Under the pieces are notes generated by a model, which had not been told where the DNA came from, ran no database searches, and saw only the letters and a list, made by a program, of their open reading frames with translations. The position numbers were made by a program, and so were the translations under genes. From positions 1-35,492 of the IMG/VR virus record IMGVR_UViG_3300033388_003543: 35,492 nt of DNA. One strand, given 5' to 3'. Below, in pieces: positions 2,024 through 9,941 of this stretch. The stretch comes from a virus. Within the stretch, counting starts at the first letter, position 1; each line of letters begins with the position of its first letter.

Positions 2024-2620
2024 ATGGGCATGCAAAATTCTTTAATTCTGGATGGGGACTTTGAACGAAAGTTCAAGGTCTTATTGTCTGATCCTGTGTG
2101 GCCATCTGTTCAATGGCTCGTAATGGCCACACGAGATTACGAGAACGCGCTTAATACCGTGGGCATGTTGCTTTATTACCTCGAAACTAAAAAAGCTGCT
2201 TTTGACAGAGAAACCTATGAGCAATACGAAATGAAGCTGCTTGATTTTCTTTTGAGACTACTGGATAAGGCTGATCACTGGGAAGAATATGTCAATATTT
2301 ACAACCGCATTCTTGAGGACCGCCCTTTCTATTGCCTGACATATAACCGCGAGCGCAATGATCCAGTCTTTAACAGGTTCATTCGATGGACGGATAAAAA
2401 ATTCCACCATGTCCATTTCCTTTATGTTCACCATCATCGTTATGAGGTTATCTGTAGGAAGCTGGACAAGGTGCGGAGTGGCAAGCGCACTGGGAATTTA
2501 TATCACGCCACACAGTGCAATTTGAGCGATGAAGAACTGCAGCAAAGATATGACCAGACTAAACAATGGATCGAACAGATTTTATCGGAATACCTGAAAT
2601 ACAAGGGGGTGAAAAAATGA
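2024..2620 (+). CDS. Conserved-looking phage protein of unknown function between immA and int
   Basis: I do not recognise a family. The 198-residue product is rich in aromatic and charged residues and is probably all-helical, with TPR-like spacing in the middle (NALNTVGMLLYYLETKKAAF, then LDKADHWEEYVNIYNRIL). A His-rich stretch HHVHFLYVHHHRYE lies near residue 130. There is no signal peptide or membrane segment. The ATG at 2024 directly follows the ImmA-like gene's stop at 2022, and the TGA overlaps the integrase ATG (ATGA at 2617-2620), so it is translationally coupled on both sides. Its place in the repressor-integrase operon suggests a role in lysogeny control or integration, but this is context only. 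Confidence 0.7.
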   Translation: MGMQNSLILDGDFERKFKVLLSDPVWPSVQWLVMATRDYENALNTVGMLLYYLETKKAAFDRETYEQYEMKLLDFLLRLLDKADHWEEYVNIYNRILEDRPFYCLTYNRERNDPVFNRFIRWTDKKFHHVHFLYVHHHRYEVICRKLDKVRSGKRTGNLYHATQCNLSDEELQQRYDQTKQWIEQILSEYLKYKGVKK

Positions 2621-4677
2621 GGGTAGCGGTCTATGCCCGCGTAAGCAGCGAGGACCAGGCTGAGCGCGGGACCATTGAGAACCAGCTAGAGTTTGCCCGG
2701 AAATACTGTGACCTTCATGAGTTGGACGTTGTGGAATGGTATCAGGATGACGGTGTGACAGGAACCATCCCGCTGGAGATGCGGGATGAAGGACGTCGCC
2801 TCCTGGAAGACGCCAAGGCTGGCCGGTTTGAGCTGCTCCTGATATACCGACTTGACCGCTTAGGACGATCTGCTCGCATTATCCTCAATGCCGTCTATGA
2901 GCTGGAGCAGTATGGTGTAAAAATCCGTAGCATGACAGAACCTTTTGACACTGGCGACCCTAACGGTCGTTTTCTTTTGACGGTCTTGGCTGGCGTAGCC
3001 GACCTGGAGCGCGAGACTATCCTCGAACGCATGTGGTACGGCGCCAACCGTGCTGCCCGCGCCGGGAAATGGCTGGGTGGAATCGTGCCATATGGATACC
3101 GGGTTAATGATGAGGGCTATTTGGAAGTCAATGAGGACCCCCTCCCTGGCATGGACATGAGCGAGGCTGGCGTGGTGCGGTTGATATACCACCTCATTGC
3201 TGACCAAGGATATTCCACCATTAAGGTGGCAGATTACCTGAATGCCCTTGGTGTGCCACCCTCTTACACCAAGGACGGCCGGCAAATAAAGAGAGGAAAG
3301 CGAAAGGTCAACACTGCTGGCATCTGGAGGCCAGGGAGAATTAGGAATATGGTAGTAAACACCACATATAAGGGAATCCACTACTATGGCAAGCGTACCA
3401 AAAAGAAACGCGAGTTGATACCCAGGGAGGTCCCTGCCATCGTAACCAAGGACATCTGGGAAAGGGCCCAGAAGGTCCTCCGGGATAACCAGCTGGAGGC
3501 CATGAAGAATGCCAAGCGGCAATACCTGCTACGTGGGCTTATCAAGTGCGGGGTCTGCGGCCTGACCTACCACGGCACAGCCTACAGTGGCCCTGGAGGC
3601 AAACCTAAGGCTTACTACGTCTGCGGCGGCAAAACGGCCTACCGTGGCCCTCTGGGCGGGAAGTGTACATCAAAGAACGTCCCTCAGGACTGGATCGAGG
3701 ACTTGGTGTGGCAGGCCTGCGTGGATTTTATTAATAACCCTGGCGATGCGATTAAAGAACTGGCTGCCAGTATGGAGGAAAGGAAGTCGCAAAAGGCAGC
3801 CCTGACCGCAGAACTGGAAATGGTCAAGAACGCCGCCAAAGAAAAAGAGGCCGAGAAGCAAAGCATCCTCGACCTTTACAGAAAGCGCATTATTGGAAGT
3901 GTGGACGTAGAACAGCAGCTGCAGCAGATTGCCCGAGAAAAGGCATCTCTGAACCAGCGAGCCCGTGACCTGGAAAAGCAAATCGAGGCCGAGGAAGGGC
4001 TAGCCCGACAGTTTGACACCGCCGAGGAACTACTGGCTGACCTTAAAGCGAAACTGGAGGCTAATCCGCCATTTGAAGTGCGTCGGGAAATCGTCCGAGC
4101 ACTGGTGAAGGAAATAATCGTAGACACAAAACCCGGAGACAATGGGCGTCCCCGGGCAGTAGTTACCGCTCGATATACTTTCTCCAAGGTTGTTACACGA
4201 ACCGCCAAGCGTGCAGAGAATATCCTTGACCTTTCTGTTGTTCGACGGGCAAAGATGCCGCCATGGTTATTGGGCCACCAATGGTCAGGAGATAGTCCTG
4301 GTGCTCGTTTAAGGCAGGCCAGGGTGGCGAAGAATATGACCATCCGCGACCTGTCTGCGGCCACTGGCCTATCCGTTACAGCCTTAAGCCGCCTGGAGGC
4401 GGATAAATTCAATGCTGCGTTGCCCAACTTACGAACACTGGCTAAGGCCCTGGGCGTCTCTATAGCTTACCTTGGCTGTTTTGAGAAACTGCCAGAGAAC
4501 ACTCTGGGCCAGCGGATTACCAAAGCCCGCCTATATCATGGCCTCACGAAGAAGGAAATGGCCCAGGCCATAGGTGTGGATCCGAAAACACTCCGCAGCT
4601 GGGAACAAGATAAACACCAACCCCTTAATCGATATTTTACCGTACTTAACTCGTATTTGGCAATTTTGGATGAGTAA
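2617..4677 (+). CDS. int: Large serine recombinase (phage integrase) with two C-terminal XRE domains
   Basis: The start is the ATG at 2617, four bases into the previous gene's stop, after GGGGGTG; 686 residues. Order of parts: serine-recombinase catalytic domain (1-145; YARVSSEDQ with catalytic Ser10, YRLDRLGRS near 77-85), recombinase domain (150-290; GKWLGGIVPYGY), zinc ribbon with C311, C314, C336 and C350, a long coiled coil (385-475) and the integrase end (to about 550). Two further helix-turn-helix units then follow: ARLRQARVAKNMTIRDLSAA to about 622, and GQRITKARLYHGLTKKEMAQ to the C terminus. The first 550 residues match ordinary large serine integrases, which recombine attP and attB without a supercoiling requirement; the tandem XRE tail is unusual. 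The gene shares an operon with the repressor. Confidence 0.93.
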   Translation: MRVAVYARVSSEDQAERGTIENQLEFARKYCDLHELDVVEWYQDDGVTGTIPLEMRDEGRRLLEDAKAGRFELLLIYRLDRLGRSARIILNAVYELEQYGVKIRSMTEPFDTGDPNGRFLLTVLAGVADLERETILERMWYGANRAARAGKWLGGIVPYGYRVNDEGYLEVNEDPLPGMDMSEAGVVRLIYHLIADQGYSTIKVADYLNALGVPPSYTKDGRQIKRGKRKVNTAGIWRPGRIRNMVVNTTYKGIHYYGKRTKKKRELIPREVPAIVTKDIWERAQKVLRDNQLEAMKNAKRQYLLRGLIKCGVCGLTYHGTAYSGPGGKPKAYYVCGGKTAYRGPLGGKCTSKNVPQDWIEDLVWQACVDFINNPGDAIKELAASMEERKSQKAALTAELEMVKNAAKEKEAEKQSILDLYRKRIIGSVDVEQQLQQIAREKASLNQRARDLEKQIEAEEGLARQFDTAEELLADLKAKLEANPPFEVRREIVRALVKEIIVDTKPGDNGRPRAVVTARYTFSKVVTRTAKRAENILDLSVVRRAKMPPWLLGHQWSGDSPGARLRQARVAKNMTIRDLSAATGLSVTALSRLEADKFNAALPNLRTLAKALGVSIAYLGCFEKLPENTLGQRITKARLYHGLTKKEMAQAIGVDPKTLRSWEQDKHQPLNRYFTVLNSYLAILDE

Positions 4678-4739: not shown

Positions 4740-5978
4740 TCATTCTATTCTTTCTTTTGCTATGCTAATGATTTGCTCTAATGTACTGCGCAATTGACTG
4801 TTTTCAGCCACAGTAGCCTCAAGTTGCTTTCTCAGTTGCTGATTTTCGGCTTTCAGTACAGCCAATCTCTCGCTATCATGTGGTCCAATTGGCAGTTCTG
4901 TTTTTAATAAATCCGCTAAATAGTCCTGTACTATACTTTTTCCATACCCGTGTCCTGGATATGCCCAGCCTACACCTGTCGGGTTCTCTGCAGCTCCCAA
5001 ATGTTCTACGTAAGATGCACTTCCCCGATGCACCAAATCGAAGCGGGGGTCCACTTTCTGCATTCCCATTGGCAGCGGCTCTGTAGTAGCGTATGCATAG
5101 AGATGCTGAATATGGGCTTCAACGCCGGTAGCTCTATCTACAAAAATAGCCCCATGAACACCTTTTTCAAAGCGGACCCTTTCAGGGTCGGCACCACGAA
5201 GAGGTTCATTACCCGTTGCGGCTTTTCCGGTTGCGCCTAAGCCACAAAAATTATTTTGCTCAGGCTTAACAAGACCGCCAAACCTGAAGAAACCAGTTTC
5301 CTTGCATGCTTGGCACAAAGCCACATCGGGCCTGATATTGTACCTGGGAGCAATTGACCAGTACAGGTCGGCCATCAATACCCAGTCCGGGGCTTTATGT
5401 TGAAGCCAGACGCGAGCCTGTTCTTTTGTTGCCTCGGGTTCACCCATGATGGGCGTAAGAGCCTCTCTCTCTTTCCTGGTTTCAGGCATATACGATTTCA
5501 CAGCAGCCAGGAAGCCTTCCCATCCGCCGGGTCGGCCGCGGAGAATATGAGGACAGTTTTTGTTGTACCAATGATGGTGCTGAACCACCCTGTCAATACT
5601 CAGATTTAACTTCTGGAGTAAATGTGCCACCAATTCAGCTGCGTTGCTCTCTGCCTTGGCGCGATTGCCGTCGCTGTTCTCGCAAATCTCCACTCCGATG
5701 CTGGTGCGGTTCCCGGGTCCGTCGTGGCCATCGGTACAGTGCCAGCCGTTTTCGTTAAGTGGTAAGTGCTGTATGGCCTGGTGGTCGTCTACCGTAAAGT
5801 GCCAGCTTACCGGGGCGCGGGCAGCAGCATTACTTTTTAGGTACCTGGCATGAGCTTCGGCATCGGCTCCTTTGTTTGGGTTAGCCGTGTCATGAATGGT
5901 AATATAGGCCGGTTTCATGAAGTATCCCGGCCTGTTACGGCGTCCTTGAGGTATAAAATCCTGTTTAATCCTAACCAT
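4740..5978 (-). CDS. Endolysin: N-terminal amidase_2 plus C-terminal glucosaminidase domain
   Basis: Two peptidoglycan hydrolase modules are visible. Residues about 1-165 are an N-acetylmuramoyl-L-alanine amidase of the T7-lysozyme/amidase_2 type, with zinc ligands in ITIHDTANP, VVQHHHWYNKNCPH and a conserved GVEICEN. Residues about 190-370 resemble a glucosaminidase (PF01832-like) domain: ALCQACKETGFFRFGG, NNFCGLGATG, GVEAHIQHLYAYA. The last 45 residues form a leucine-heptad coiled coil (LKAENQQLRKQLEA). The start at ATG 5978 follows GCGGGGATG; the ATG at 6002 would overlap the holin gene by 23 nt. With the two holin-like genes just upstream it forms the lysis cassette at the end of the late operon. 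Two cleavage specificities in one lysin would speed wall breakdown. Confidence 0.9.
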   Translation of the reverse strand: MVRIKQDFIPQGRRNRPGYFMKPAYITIHDTANPNKGADAEAHARYLKSNAAARAPVSWHFTVDDHQAIQHLPLNENGWHCTDGHDGPGNRTSIGVEICENSDGNRAKAESNAAELVAHLLQKLNLSIDRVVQHHHWYNKNCPHILRGRPGGWEGFLAAVKSYMPETRKEREALTPIMGEPEATKEQARVWLQHKAPDWVLMADLYWSIAPRYNIRPDVALCQACKETGFFRFGGLVKPEQNNFCGLGATGKAATGNEPLRGADPERVRFEKGVHGAIFVDRATGVEAHIQHLYAYATTEPLPMGMQKVDPRFDLVHRGSASYVEHLGAAENPTGVGWAYPGHGYGKSIVQDYLADLLKTELPIGPHDSERLAVLKAENQQLRKQLEATVAENSQLRSTLEQIISIAKERIE

Positions 5979-6551: not shown

Positions 6552-7670
6552 TCACCTCCTGGGGTGACTGTCACTTTCCTCATTTGCATCTCCTCCTTTA
6601 GTCAAAACGAATGCCTCCAGCAGCTTCCGCCGCAAATTATAACTGTCAGCATGACTTACATGGCCTAACCATGACTGGATGGTAGCATTGATCTTTTCAA
6701 GGTCGATCCGGCCTTCGCGGTACTTCCGTTGGAATGCTTTGAGCTTTCGCTTCATCCTCTTGATACTCGACTTCCTGACCAATCGATGCGTGGGCCAGAT
6801 GCGATATCCAAGGAAGTCAATGCCTTGGCTTATTGGCCAGATGCCGGTTTTACTATTCAGCCGCAGGTCGAGCTTATCGGCAAGGAAAGCCTCAATTTCT
6901 CGCTTAACCTGCCACAAGTGGCCCTTGTCCCCGCCCAGGATAACAAAATCGTCCATATAGCGGACGTAATAAGGCTCCTGGAGAACCTCCTTCACGAAGT
7001 GGTCCAATTGGTCCAGGTAGACATTGGCCCACAACTGAGACGTGAGGTTTCCAATCGGCAGGCCTCTCGGGCAGTCGCTACCATCACCCCCGCTATCGAT
7101 GATCTCGTCAATCAACCACAAGGTATCTGAGCAAGCTATGCGCTTCCTTATGATGGCTTTCAGGATTGAGTGGTTAATGCTCGGAAAATATTGTGACACG
7201 TCAGCCTTTAAACAATAAACTTTATCCCATTTCCGTTGAGCTACCCGGAGAAACTGAGTAACCCGATCTGCACCCGCATGAATGCCCCGGCCAACACGAC
7301 AGGCATAACTGTCGTAAATAAACCTTTCCTCAAAAATCGGTTCAATGACGTTGCACAAGGCATGCTGGACCACCCTGTCTTTGAATGGAAGTGCGGCCAC
7401 CAGGCGTTTTTTGGGGTCATTAACCCAGAAATACCGGTATCTCCCCGTTCTGAACGTCTTATAAATGAGCTCGTTCTGTATCTGAATGAGGTTGCTTTCT
7501 AAGTTAAAGGAAAATTTCAGCACCTCATCCTGGAAGCGCTTGCCCCTTCTAGCCTTCATGTAAGCCAGCTCAAGATTTTGAAAGTCGTAAATCCTTGGGT
7601 AAAGGTTCGTATATGTTTTGGCTATTTTTTCACCCCCCCTTATGAGGGCGGCAGCCCATGACGGTCGCAA
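6552..7670 (-). CDS. Diversity-generating retroelement reverse transcriptase
   Basis: The protein copies the template-repeat RNA into an adenine-mutated cDNA that replaces the variable repeat. Seen: the DGR/group II-type RT fold with NLYPRIYDFQNLELAYMKAR, KADVSQYFPSINH (catalytic Asp157), the DGR-specific GLPIGNLTSQLWANVYL in place of the usual QG..xSP/Q motif 4, RYMDDFVIL (Asp240, Asp241) and a thumb domain ending near 350. Its length is normal for the family. There is no maturase or endonuclease domain. The only standard start upstream is TTG 7668-7670, with a poor Shine-Dalgarno; relatives begin at the residue encoded by ATA 7623-7625, which has a perfect GGGGGGGTG five bases ahead. Its stop lies within the Shine-Dalgarno of the holin-like gene. 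Confidence 0.95.
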   Translation of the reverse strand: MRPSWAAALIRGGEKIAKTYTNLYPRIYDFQNLELAYMKARRGKRFQDEVLKFSFNLESNLIQIQNELIYKTFRTGRYRYFWVNDPKKRLVAALPFKDRVVQHALCNVIEPIFEERFIYDSYACRVGRGIHAGADRVTQFLRVAQRKWDKVYCLKADVSQYFPSINHSILKAIIRKRIACSDTLWLIDEIIDSGGDGSDCPRGLPIGNLTSQLWANVYLDQLDHFVKEVLQEPYYVRYMDDFVILGGDKGHLWQVKREIEAFLADKLDLRLNSKTGIWPISQGIDFLGYRIWPTHRLVRKSSIKRMKRKLKAFQRKYREGRIDLEKINATIQSWLGHVSHADSYNLRRKLLEAFVLTKGGDANEESDSHPRR

Positions 7671-7801
7671 ACCTACTGGCCATGAACTGCCTGTTTATGT
7701 TTTTTGCCGGCCGGCTTCCGGCGCGACAGGGACCTGAACTCCTTTGCCTAAAGCACTGGACGTTGTCCCAGTAGGACCCCGCCTTCTGGCACAGTTAGGC
7801 G

Positions 7802-7920
7802 AAGCGGCGCGGAAGCCGATGTTGATGTTCGCGTTCGACGGCAGATTGTTCAGGTTCAACGAGAACCCCGCCCGGGCATTCGAGCCATTGTTCCAGTTCC
7901 CACCACGGAGGGCAGCCCGC
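7802..7920 (-). repeat. DGR template repeat (TR), within a non-coding RNA region
   Basis: A 119-bp direct copy of the variable repeat at 8405-8523 (offset 603). It lies between avd and the RT gene, where DGR template RNAs are found. The coding strand contains ten AAY codons, giving a translation rich in Asn (LNLNNLPSNANINIGF). Within the repeat 97 positions carry no coding-strand adenine and all 97 are identical to the variable repeat; of 22 adenines, 14 differ. An open frame crosses the repeat but has no ribosome site, so I treat it as template RNA. The transcript probably extends from the end of avd to near 7630, including a 130-nt spacer before the RT. Confidence 0.95.
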
Positions 7921-7948
7921 ACATAGTCAGTTCAGGCCCCAAATAAGG

Positions 7949-8317
7949 TTACTTCCTAATAGACTTAAACCAACCACCGATTAGCCGCCCAATTTCCTCG
8001 AGCATACCGGCCCAAATCTCATACTTTTTGGGTGGTAGAAACCCGAGGCGTCTGGAGAGGCGAAGATAAAACATTAAGACGGCCTTCTCTATGTCCAATT
8101 CTTCCAGAGTGTTCTTTTTGTAGTAGCGCATGTTGGCCGTAATAATCAGCCGCTGGAGATTGATCATGCATCTCTTCATCTCAGCGGCAAGGGTGTGCTT
8201 TTCCGACTTGGGAAACTGTTGTAAGGCCTTATACCCGTAAAGGATCATATCCTCGCATTTCTGGGCGAGAATAAATGTTCTGTCCCTTGGCCGACCTTGG
8301 TTCTCTCTTTGTTCCAT
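7949..8317 (-). CDS. avd: Avd, accessory variability determinant of the DGR
   Basis: The 122-residue basic protein sits between the target gene and the template repeat, the standard avd position. Its sequence suits the four-helix bundle of Bordetella phage Avd and the 23S rRNA intervening-sequence protein fold: helices around ILAQKCEDMILYGYKALQQF, EKHTLAAEMKRCMINLQRLI, LDIEKAVLMFYLRLSRRLGF and IWAGMLEEIGRLIGGWFKSI. In Bordetella, a pentameric Avd binds the RT and the template RNA and is required for mutagenic cDNA synthesis. The ATG at 8317 has AAAGGA upstream. The gap to the target stop (8394) holds the DGR hairpin. High confidence from position, length and fold pattern. Confidence 0.9.
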   Translation of the reverse strand: MEQRENQGRPRDRTFILAQKCEDMILYGYKALQQFPKSEKHTLAAEMKRCMINLQRLIITANMRYYKKNTLEELDIEKAVLMFYLRLSRRLGFLPPKKYEIWAGMLEEIGRLIGGWFKSIRK

Positions 8318-8344
8318 ATGCTAACAAAGTCCTTTCAGAGCTGA

Positions 8345-8364
8345 GGCCTCGCTATCGCGAGGCC
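8345..8364 (-). promoter_or_regulatory. DGR target-recognition hairpin/cruciform downstream of the variable repeat
   Basis: A perfect inverted repeat: 8-bp arms GGCCTCGC / GCGAGGCC with the loop GATA on the coding strand. Four more pairs (CTGA/TCAG) can form after a one-base bulge. It lies 40 nt past the 3' end of the variable repeat and 29 nt past the target stop codon. In Bordetella phage and related DGRs a hairpin of 7-10 bp with a GRNA tetraloop downstream of the variable repeat promotes efficient retrohoming; GATA fits GRNA. No U-tract follows, so it is not a normal terminator. Confidence 0.82.
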
Positions 8365-8393
8365 ATCAGATTTTCAGTAATCAGATTTCAGAT

Positions 8394-9941
8394 TTACAGA
8401 GACAAAGCGGCGCGGAAGCCGATGCTGATGCCCGCGTGCGACGGCAGACCGCCCAGGCTCAACGAGAACCCCGCCCGGGCACGCGAGCCATGGGGCCAGT
8501 TCCCACCACGGAGGGCAGCCCGCTGTTTGTAGTTACGTAGCCAGAAACCGTCTTTCCATTCTTCACTGCCGCCAGAGGAAACAGAAGCGGGGAGCGCCAA
8601 TGCCTGCAACTCGGCCTCGGTTCTCATGGTTAGGAATTTCCCATATTGATAAGCACCATAATCACCAGTAGCCGTTGGGTTGCTATTAGACATTTGTGGT
8701 GAAATCCGTGCAATGCCCACACCCTGGGCATGGGCGGCTACAGTAGAGCTATTAGCGCCGCGGCTTACAGTGATACTGTTGCCTTCAACTGCTGTGACGG
8801 TTAATTGCTCGGTTTCACATTGGAGCACATCGCCCACGGCTGGTCCAGTACAGCCAGGTCCATTAACCAGATCCGATATAGTGAATGTGGCTGGGTCTGT
8901 TGTATTATCCAGCCCAGTATCAGCGATTTTGGCCGTCCAGCCACCAGGTATCACGCAGTAATCAGTAAGTTGCTGGACAGGTGTATTGTTGGGGTGTGCA
9001 CCAGCGGTTGTGCCGTTGACGCCCCGCTGACAGTTAGTTAAGGTGACGGTGCCATCACCGTTGTCCACCAGCGACCCATATGTGATATATTCAGCGGGGT
9101 AGGTAGTGGTACCATCGGTACTTTCCTCAATATAAACAAGCCCATTGCTATCCGGCCAATACTCCAGGTCATCTACACTGCCGAGAACGATGGCTGTATC
9201 AGCGGCAGTAATGCCATCAGCATCCGCGATGACCGCGCTCTTAACTGCCTGGTACCTCCCGCAGTCGATCAGGAAGTCTACCCATTCCCAAAGACCGATT
9301 AGGTCAAAAATGCCGTTAGCCATCCCGTTATGGCTCCAGGAGATAGGGCCAGTTCCGGTTAAAACGCGGGAATGTGTTTTATTGTAACTGGCTGTATAAC
9401 TGGCCACCACCGGATCGGCAATACCGTAATACTCCCACGAGTCGGGATCTCGGTAATCCCGGCCCCAGTTATTGTTTCCACGCAGGTCATGACCAAACAG
9501 TTTAACCAGGAAGGCAATGGTAGCCCATTCCTTCATCGTTACCAAGTGGCAGGAACGGCCATTGATTTTCCGGTTCGCACAGGCGATTTTAGCGTTATCC
9601 CAGTTTATATCAGTCCAAGGAACAACCCCTTGCTGAGATACGGCCGCTACTTGACCCGGGCTGTTTGCTGAAGTGCTGCCCCTGCTGGTATTGGTTGCAT
9701 CTGGTTGACTGCAGGGGTATTTGTCAATTAAGAAACCGCCCAGTTTAAGGTCCTGAGATGGAAATGCCCCATTATCCCATAGTCCCGCAGGGATGCGGAA
9801 TTTCGGAACATAAATCATTTTGGAAACGACTGTAGCGCCAGTACCGTCAGCCATGGAATTGTGGACGACGTCCACCTCACGAGTGCCCGCGTTAATCCTG
9901 TCTCTGAGTGCAGCCAGAGATAATTTGCTCACGTTTGCCAT
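8394..9941 (-). CDS. DGR target: C-type-lectin/FGE-sulfatase-fold tail-tip protein with variable C terminus
   Basis: The 515-residue protein is probably the receptor-binding protein of the tail. The N-terminal 45 residues likely anchor it to the tail. A formylglycine-generating-enzyme-like C-type lectin fold runs from about 50 (KLGGFLIDKYPCSQPDATN, VTMKEWATIAFLV, GRDYRDPDSWEYYG, NGIFDLIGLWEWVDF) to the C terminus (ALRGGNW...GFRAA). Residues about 235-415 are an insertion with two similar units, each ending in RG.N..T.A.H....V (306-322 and 394-408). The variable repeat is the last 43 residues, with nine changed sites in the lectin binding surface. The ATG at 9941 immediately follows the previous stop and has GGAGGTGG. 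It lies just after the tail-fibre genes and before avd. Confidence 0.93.
   Translation of the reverse strand: MANVSKLSLAALRDRINAGTREVDVVHNSMADGTGATVVSKMIYVPKFRIPAGLWDNGAFPSQDLKLGGFLIDKYPCSQPDATNTSRGSTSANSPGQVAAVSQQGVVPWTDINWDNAKIACANRKINGRSCHLVTMKEWATIAFLVKLFGHDLRGNNNWGRDYRDPDSWEYYGIADPVVASYTASYNKTHSRVLTGTGPISWSHNGMANGIFDLIGLWEWVDFLIDCGRYQAVKSAVIADADGITAADTAIVLGSVDDLEYWPDSNGLVYIEESTDGTTTYPAEYITYGSLVDNGDGTVTLTNCQRGVNGTTAGAHPNNTPVQQLTDYCVIPGGWTAKIADTGLDNTTDPATFTISDLVNGPGCTGPAVGDVLQCETEQLTVTAVEGNSITVSRGANSSTVAAHAQGVGIARISPQMSNSNPTATGDYGAYQYGKFLTMRTEAELQALALPASVSSGGSEEWKDGFWLRNYKQRAALRGGNWPHGSRARAGFSLSLGGLPSHAGISIGFRAALSL
8405..8523 (-). repeat. DGR variable repeat (VR) at the 3' end of the target gene
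   Basis: A 119-bp copy of the template repeat encoding target residues 473-513. There are fourteen differences from the template, all at template adenines: nine A to G and five A to C. They change nine of ten Asn codons, giving P483, H484, R487, S495, G497, G498, H502, G504 and S506. The GC-rich 3' end, coding GGCTTCCGCGCCGCTT, is adenine-free and identical in both copies, as expected of the site where mutagenic homing initiates. Confidence 0.95.

Follow-up and report, generated by a model that had tools for sequence, protein, structure and literature searches.

Known systems

Diversity-generating retroelements (DGRs) are broadly known, and a survey of their activity in nature found viral DGRs to be the most active (PMC8144416). 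In the Bordetella phage BPP-1 the cassette runs mtd-avd-TR-brt (TR being the template repeat), mutagenesis is restricted to adenines, the reverse transcriptase (RT) carries IGxxxSQ and YMDD motifs and works with the accessory protein Avd, the target is a lectin-fold protein at the tail tip, and there is a hairpin with a GRNA loop; the spacer beyond the TR recruits the RT-Avd complex, and an adenine within it primes cDNA synthesis (PMC12875486, a study in which the system was rebuilt in laboratory E. coli). A second described system is that of a Thermus aquaticus prophage, for which the structure of the variable protein TaqVP is available (PDB 5vf4); its variable residues are solvent exposed and form a putative binding site (PMC6328139). 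A third case is the Bacillus phage BalMu-1 (KP063903, locus L173), where the sequence record annotates the RT as 'retron-type' and leaves the DGR unannotated; that this locus is a DGR follows from its adenine-biased pair of template and variable repeats together with its RT-14 spacer.

The DNA analysed here, referred to throughout as the window, is an entire IMG/VR virus record of 35,492 bases. Its cassette shares with BPP-1 the gene order, the restriction of mutagenesis to adenines, Avd, the two RT motifs, the lectin-fold target at the tail tip and the GRNA hairpin, the two RTs being 41% identical, but the spacers belong to separate Rfam families (RF03022 in BPP-1, RF02921 in the window), the window target is without the trimerisation domains of the BPP-1 target Mtd while having a β-barrel insert, and the context appears from relatives to be Firmicutes rather than Bordetella. 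TaqVP is a full-length homologue of the window target, which is longer (515 as against 381 residues) mainly through an insert at about 235-415. BalMu-1 resembles the window in its RT (49% identical), in having an adenine-biased repeat pair and in its RT-14 spacer, but is unlike it in being a Mu-like phage. Sister loci (L002, L003, L004, L005, L082, L083 and L182) have the same cassette order, with RTs 81-91% and targets 65-82% identical to those of the window; they differ from it in their variable repeats at adenine sites, in an extra gene at L083, in a partly overwritten TR at L005 and in the hairpin loop of L182. The window DGR is a new and well-preserved case of a known system and not a new kind, its least ordinary points being the link to RT-14 and a target whose lectin fold is split. 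Its value lies in the completeness of this phage DGR and in how cleanly its differences are confined to adenines, and sister loci make activity readable from sequence alone.

Organisation of the cassette

The cassette lies on the minus strand, reading in order target, hairpin, avd, TR, spacer and RT (9941-8394, 8364-8345, 8317-7949, 7920-7802, then the spacer, then the RT ending at 6552). Its features, by ascending coordinate, are:

6552-7670, minus strand: DGR reverse transcriptase, up to 372 aa (PF00078, phrog_1423, PDB 8ub7; IGNLTSQ and YMDD motifs)
7650-7803, minus strand: structured spacer RNA, Rfam RT-14 (RF02921), in the gap between TR and RT (covariance-model match, covariation)
7802-7920, minus strand: template repeat (TR), with ten AAY and two ATC codons and a candidate IMH* at its 3' end
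7949-8317, minus strand: Avd, accessory variability determinant, 122 aa (NF033474, PF22296, phrog_3206)
8345-8364, minus strand: hairpin/cruciform GGCCTCGC-GATA-GCGAGGCC, 8-bp stem and GRNA loop (fold test, sister comparison, rule of PMC3240598)
8394-9941, minus strand: target (variable) protein, 515 aa, FGE-type C-type-lectin fold (PHROG 2889; TaqVP 5vf4; AlphaFold2)
8405-8523, minus strand: variable repeat (VR), lying 3'-terminally in the target gene; candidate IMH at about 8405-8425, the VR 3' end

We put at roughly 96% the probability that this is a complete phage-type DGR, carried by a tailed phage or prophage with an HK97-type capsid. A preliminary description of the same DNA had listed RT, avd, TR and lectin-fold target as all present, and each of these is supported by profile, structure or comparison; its list did, however, miss both the hairpin (8345-8364) and the spacer RNA (7650-7803).

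For Avd the profile evidence is straightforward, the scores being 110.7 bits for NF033474 (cut-off 80) and 111.4 bits for PF22296 (cut-off 40). The RT belongs to the DGR clade by its motifs and by its profile and structure-database matches: its motifs are IGNLTSQ and YMDD, against IGSLTSQ and YMDD in BPP-1 brt, and QGxxxSP is lacking; it matches the DGR-type PHROG family phrog_1423 with E 4e-150; and among solved structures it is closest to 8ub7 (E 7e-72), with a group II intron RT next (E 7e-21). The structure 8ub7, which the database table labels just 'reverse transcriptase', is presumably the BPP-1 RT. Retron, group II intron and DRT identities were considered for this RT and rejected, their NCBIfam scores falling far under the cut-offs. 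The start codon is uncertain, because the final part of the RT-14 RNA match runs over the TTG listed as its start.

If the parts act as their BPP-1 counterparts do, an RNA comprising TR plus spacer would bind the RT/Avd complex through the folded spacer; the TR would then be copied into cDNA with misincorporation opposite template adenines, and the cDNA would replace the VR, guided by IMH and hairpin, leaving the TR unchanged. As many as 9e12 versions of the target, probably a tail protein for receptor binding, could arise in this way, differing on its lectin-fold face. The cassette may thus go on altering about ten codons that encode the tip of this protein, which probably binds the host.

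Template and variable repeats

The TR and VR, whose ends were defined by where identity stops, form the sole long direct repeat found by a repeat search within the window. When they were realigned (7802-7920 against 8405-8523, offset 603) there were 14 mismatches over 119 positions, all 14 falling at the 22 adenines of the TR as read on the coding (minus) strand, nine being A to G and five A to C, while the other 97 positions were identical without exception (97/97; hypergeometric p = 5.4e-13). Realignment thus bore out what the preliminary description had claimed, namely that the repeats differ only at template adenines and that nine of ten Asn codons are changed. In residue numbers the changes are N483P, N484H, N487R, N495S, N497G, N498G, N502H, N504G and N506S, Asn481 being the same in both. 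At the 3' end both repeats are GC-rich and invariant (GGCTTCCGCGCCGC), a pattern fitting a candidate IMH/IMH* pair; the first differences beyond it have C on the TR side and T on the VR side (coding strand), at 7801 and 7799, as would be expected just past an IMH*/IMH boundary.

The template adenines belong to ten AAY and two ATC codons, in which adenine changes cannot yield a stop, and the protein diversity reachable by such changes is 9.2e12 variants. The absence of A to T among the 14 changes is mildly unusual (about 0.003 under equal odds). An altered mutation spectrum was nonetheless rejected as a trait of the group, since many A to T changes occur in relatives: across 33 related TR/VR pairs, adenines had changed to G 147 times, to T 132 times and to C 85 times.

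Since the TR could be taken for a copied 3' terminus of the target gene, one might suppose an ordinary duplication of the gene end followed by drift or selection at Asn codons, with reverse transcription playing no part. This is extremely improbable. The adenine-only pattern (p = 5e-13) already refutes it, a DGR-type RT, an Avd and a spacer RNA all adjoin the TR, and in the sister loci described below the TR adenine sites are constant, the VR differs at most of them, and each VR follows the changes of its own TR.

Sister loci and the direction of copying

Sister cassettes were drawn from viral contigs (IMG/VR) and from Firmicutes genomes (MAGs). For the window and five of the sisters (L002, L003, L082, L083 and L182) the repeats were compared over all 15 pairs. 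At TR adenine sites the TRs showed no differences at all (0/300), whereas the VRs differed at the same sites in 191 of 300 comparisons; at non-adenine sites the corresponding figures were 48/1,425 for the TRs and 77/1,425 for the VRs. The sister comparison proposed in the preliminary description, with its expectation of constant TR adenines and a VR that varies at those sites, therefore came out as anticipated. Furthermore, in the non-adenine columns where TRs differ from one another, each VR agrees with its own TR, 53 times out of 54, from which it follows that the VRs have been recopied from their TRs since the phages diverged. As read from these alignments, transfer is directional, from TR to VR.

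For the window itself the most telling sites are TR positions 59 and 78 (window positions 7862 and 7843), where TR and VR have bases in common that occur in no sister. The surrounding DNA of the window's relatives is about 80% identical, and the shared bases imply that the window VR was rewritten from its own TR after the split from those relatives; it is on this that the earlier suggestion of a DGR active in this lineage now stands. A very unlikely alternative is that the two bases came to be shared by conversion of the TR from the VR, as seems to have happened in the relative L005. A single pasted tract of VR would have removed the TR adenines at 66, 71, 72, 74 and 75, all of which lie between 59 and 78 and are intact in the TR but lost in the VR, making this direction unlikely.

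More recent change can be seen in the near-identical pair L182 (from a bacterial genome) and L002 (from a viral contig), which share 99% identity across the 3,154 nt surrounding the DGR. They differ at 30 sites, with 13 inside the 119-nt VR, 17 in the remaining 3,035 nt and none inside the TR, an enrichment in the VR with odds ratio 22 (p = 1e-11), and 11 of the 13 VR differences are at TR adenines. Judged by comparison, this is a pattern of recent activity, which concerns a sister and not the window. Just one VR sequence is known for this phage, and it could be argued that its DGR once worked and has since fallen silent, the pattern recording an old retrohoming event. We consider this unlikely: no frameshift or stop interrupts the cassette, whose RT, avd, TR, spacer and hairpin are each intact, the TR retains all its template adenines, and the L182/L002 pair shows recent change in the VR but not the TR. 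The window DGR is probably active. When viral contigs were searched with the TR/VR pattern, matched exactly with adenines masked, no sister of the window itself turned up, in a set from which the records nearest to the window may have been left out.

Some individual relatives show peculiarities of their own. At L005 (TR 5735-5855, VR 5166-5286) eight of the 21 template adenines seen in L004, a relative, are gone from the TR, and each of the 13 bases that have changed is the one found in L005's own VR, apparently a VR-to-TR conversion that destroyed part of the template. L083 has an extra small ORF (5395-5709, plus strand) between avd and TR, its TR-VR offset being 897 as against about 600. Finally, L186 and L002 are 99% identical over the DGR block but 89% over 8 kb once the upstream tail genes are included, which suggests that tail tip and DGR are exchanged between phages as a unit.

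The spacer RNA

The gap between TR and RT is occupied by a full-length match to the Rfam family RT-14 (RF02921; 7803-7650, 54.9 bits against a gathering threshold of 48.1). By analogy with BPP-1, it is probably the region that binds RT and Avd and primes cDNA synthesis. Eight sister or related loci have an RF02921 match at the same place, as do more distant loci. In the predicted fold eight pairs show compensatory changes, exceeding both shuffled and slid controls, although helix 4 is nearly invariant and so is not tested by covariation. A spacer model built from 11 spacers (R1) matched 39 places in 71 sources, and in all 33 loci with a detected repeat pair its match starts no more than 7 nt from the TR end. 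The loci at which RT-14 starts at the TR end are the window, L002-L007, L012, L022, L035-L037, L039, L043, L047, L049, L082, L083, L090 and L170-L185.

In order to escape circularity, the RNA family was also searched on its own, without the RT as a query, in 26 and then 398 genomes. This gave 14 RT-14 loci, 13 of them above the cut-off, among which two (L180 and L185) are copies on one contig and four (L171, L179, L182 and L174) are closely related by their RTs to the window. All 14 lie directly upstream of a DGR-type RT, and at 11 of them an adenine-biased TR ends where the RNA starts, for which reasons RT-14 can be taken, with good support from these comparisons, as the DGR spacer RNA of the window's branch. 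One practical consequence is that annotators could find the priming RNA without the RT.

A wider proposition, to which we would give even odds, is that a broad branch of DGRs, mostly from Firmicutes, has RT-14 as its template spacer, which would make RT-14 a second folded priming scaffold, distinct at the level of models from RF03022 of BPP-1. The BPP-1 spacer scores 104.7 bits with RF03022. Homology between the two spacers was considered and is unsupported: RF03022 gave no match on window positions 7550-8000 up to E 10, a result compatible with distant homology, and R1 gave no significant match on BPP-1. If the proposition is true, comparing RT-14 with RF03022 could reveal which parts of a spacer are needed for priming and for infidelity. 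RT-14 gives those studying how DGRs work another natural scaffold, one that apparently comes from Firmicutes hosts. The RT-14 RNA is said to have been described in an earlier paper. Full-text searches for a link between RT-14 and DGRs gave nothing relevant, the original description of RT-14 being outside their scope, and the link may have been published before.

Two further observations concern the number of spacers per locus. On one contig, two RT-14 copies 593 nt apart (G246:C59:7394-7542, L185, and 7987-8135, L180) lie upstream of a single DGR-type RT and are perhaps two template units. At L018 and L088 the RT has its upstream spacer-model match and, on its downstream side, an extra, weak one (7551-7674); a second TR was sought near this downstream match and none was detected.

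The hairpin

Target hairpins of phage DGRs follow a rule: the stem is GC-rich and 7-10 bp long, the loop is 5'-GRNA, and the distance from the VR, 4-34 bp in the published examples, is called flexible (PMC3240598). The window hairpin, which fits this rule, lies 40 nt past the VR, slightly outside that range, and its fold beats all of 200 shuffles (200/200, z -4.2). An identical hairpin is found with the same placement in four sisters (L002, L003, L082 and L083), while in L182 the stem is identical and the loop is GGTA in place of GATA, which still keeps to GRNA.

The target protein

No Pfam or NCBIfam family matches the target above its cut-off. A profile built from an alignment of 34 homologues matches TaqVP (5vf4) over its full length with E 2e-102, and the AlphaFold2 model (mean pLDDT 88) superposes on TaqVP with Z 27.6 over 288 residues in structure comparison, on the Treponema variable protein TvpA with Z 13.9 and on Mtd with about Z 12. 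Using the TaqVP numbering of PMC6328139, the variable positions 348, 351, 354, 361, 364, 368, 370 and 372 were placed by hand from the profile alignment (with one gap) at window residues 481, 484, 487, 495, 498, 502, 504 and 506. These are eight of the nine variable positions of TaqVP, and all eight correspond to TR Asn codons in the window. The preliminary description had expected a structural prediction to place the changed residues on the lectin binding face, and the model agrees with this in that it matches solved DGR variable proteins and the variable residues align to exposed variable positions of TaqVP.

Residues of about 235-415 form an inserted β-barrel module, largely missing from shorter relatives, which resembles parts of phage baseplate or tail-tip proteins (JBD30, Z 11.0; Chi, Z 9.2); a match to Rcc01698_C is weak in the window target and above the cut-off in L005. 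On the model, then, the target would be a TaqVP-type lectin fold split by a β-barrel module like those of phage baseplate proteins, a smaller novelty of this locus, and analogy with BPP-1 makes it probably a receptor-binding tail protein with a role in binding the host.

Genomic setting

Profile searches identified, among the minus-strand genes of the window, an HK97-type major capsid protein, a portal protein, a large terminase, tail and baseplate proteins and an endolysin. The DGR closes the tail module and has genes of tail-fibre type on one side and lysis genes on the other. The capsid protein was searched for in the three genomes carrying sister DGRs and was not found. Relatives suggest a Firmicutes host, which is a guess. 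On the plus strand, at 2566-4677, there is a serine integrase of 703 aa, apparently fused to two C-terminal HTH domains of Cro/C1 type.
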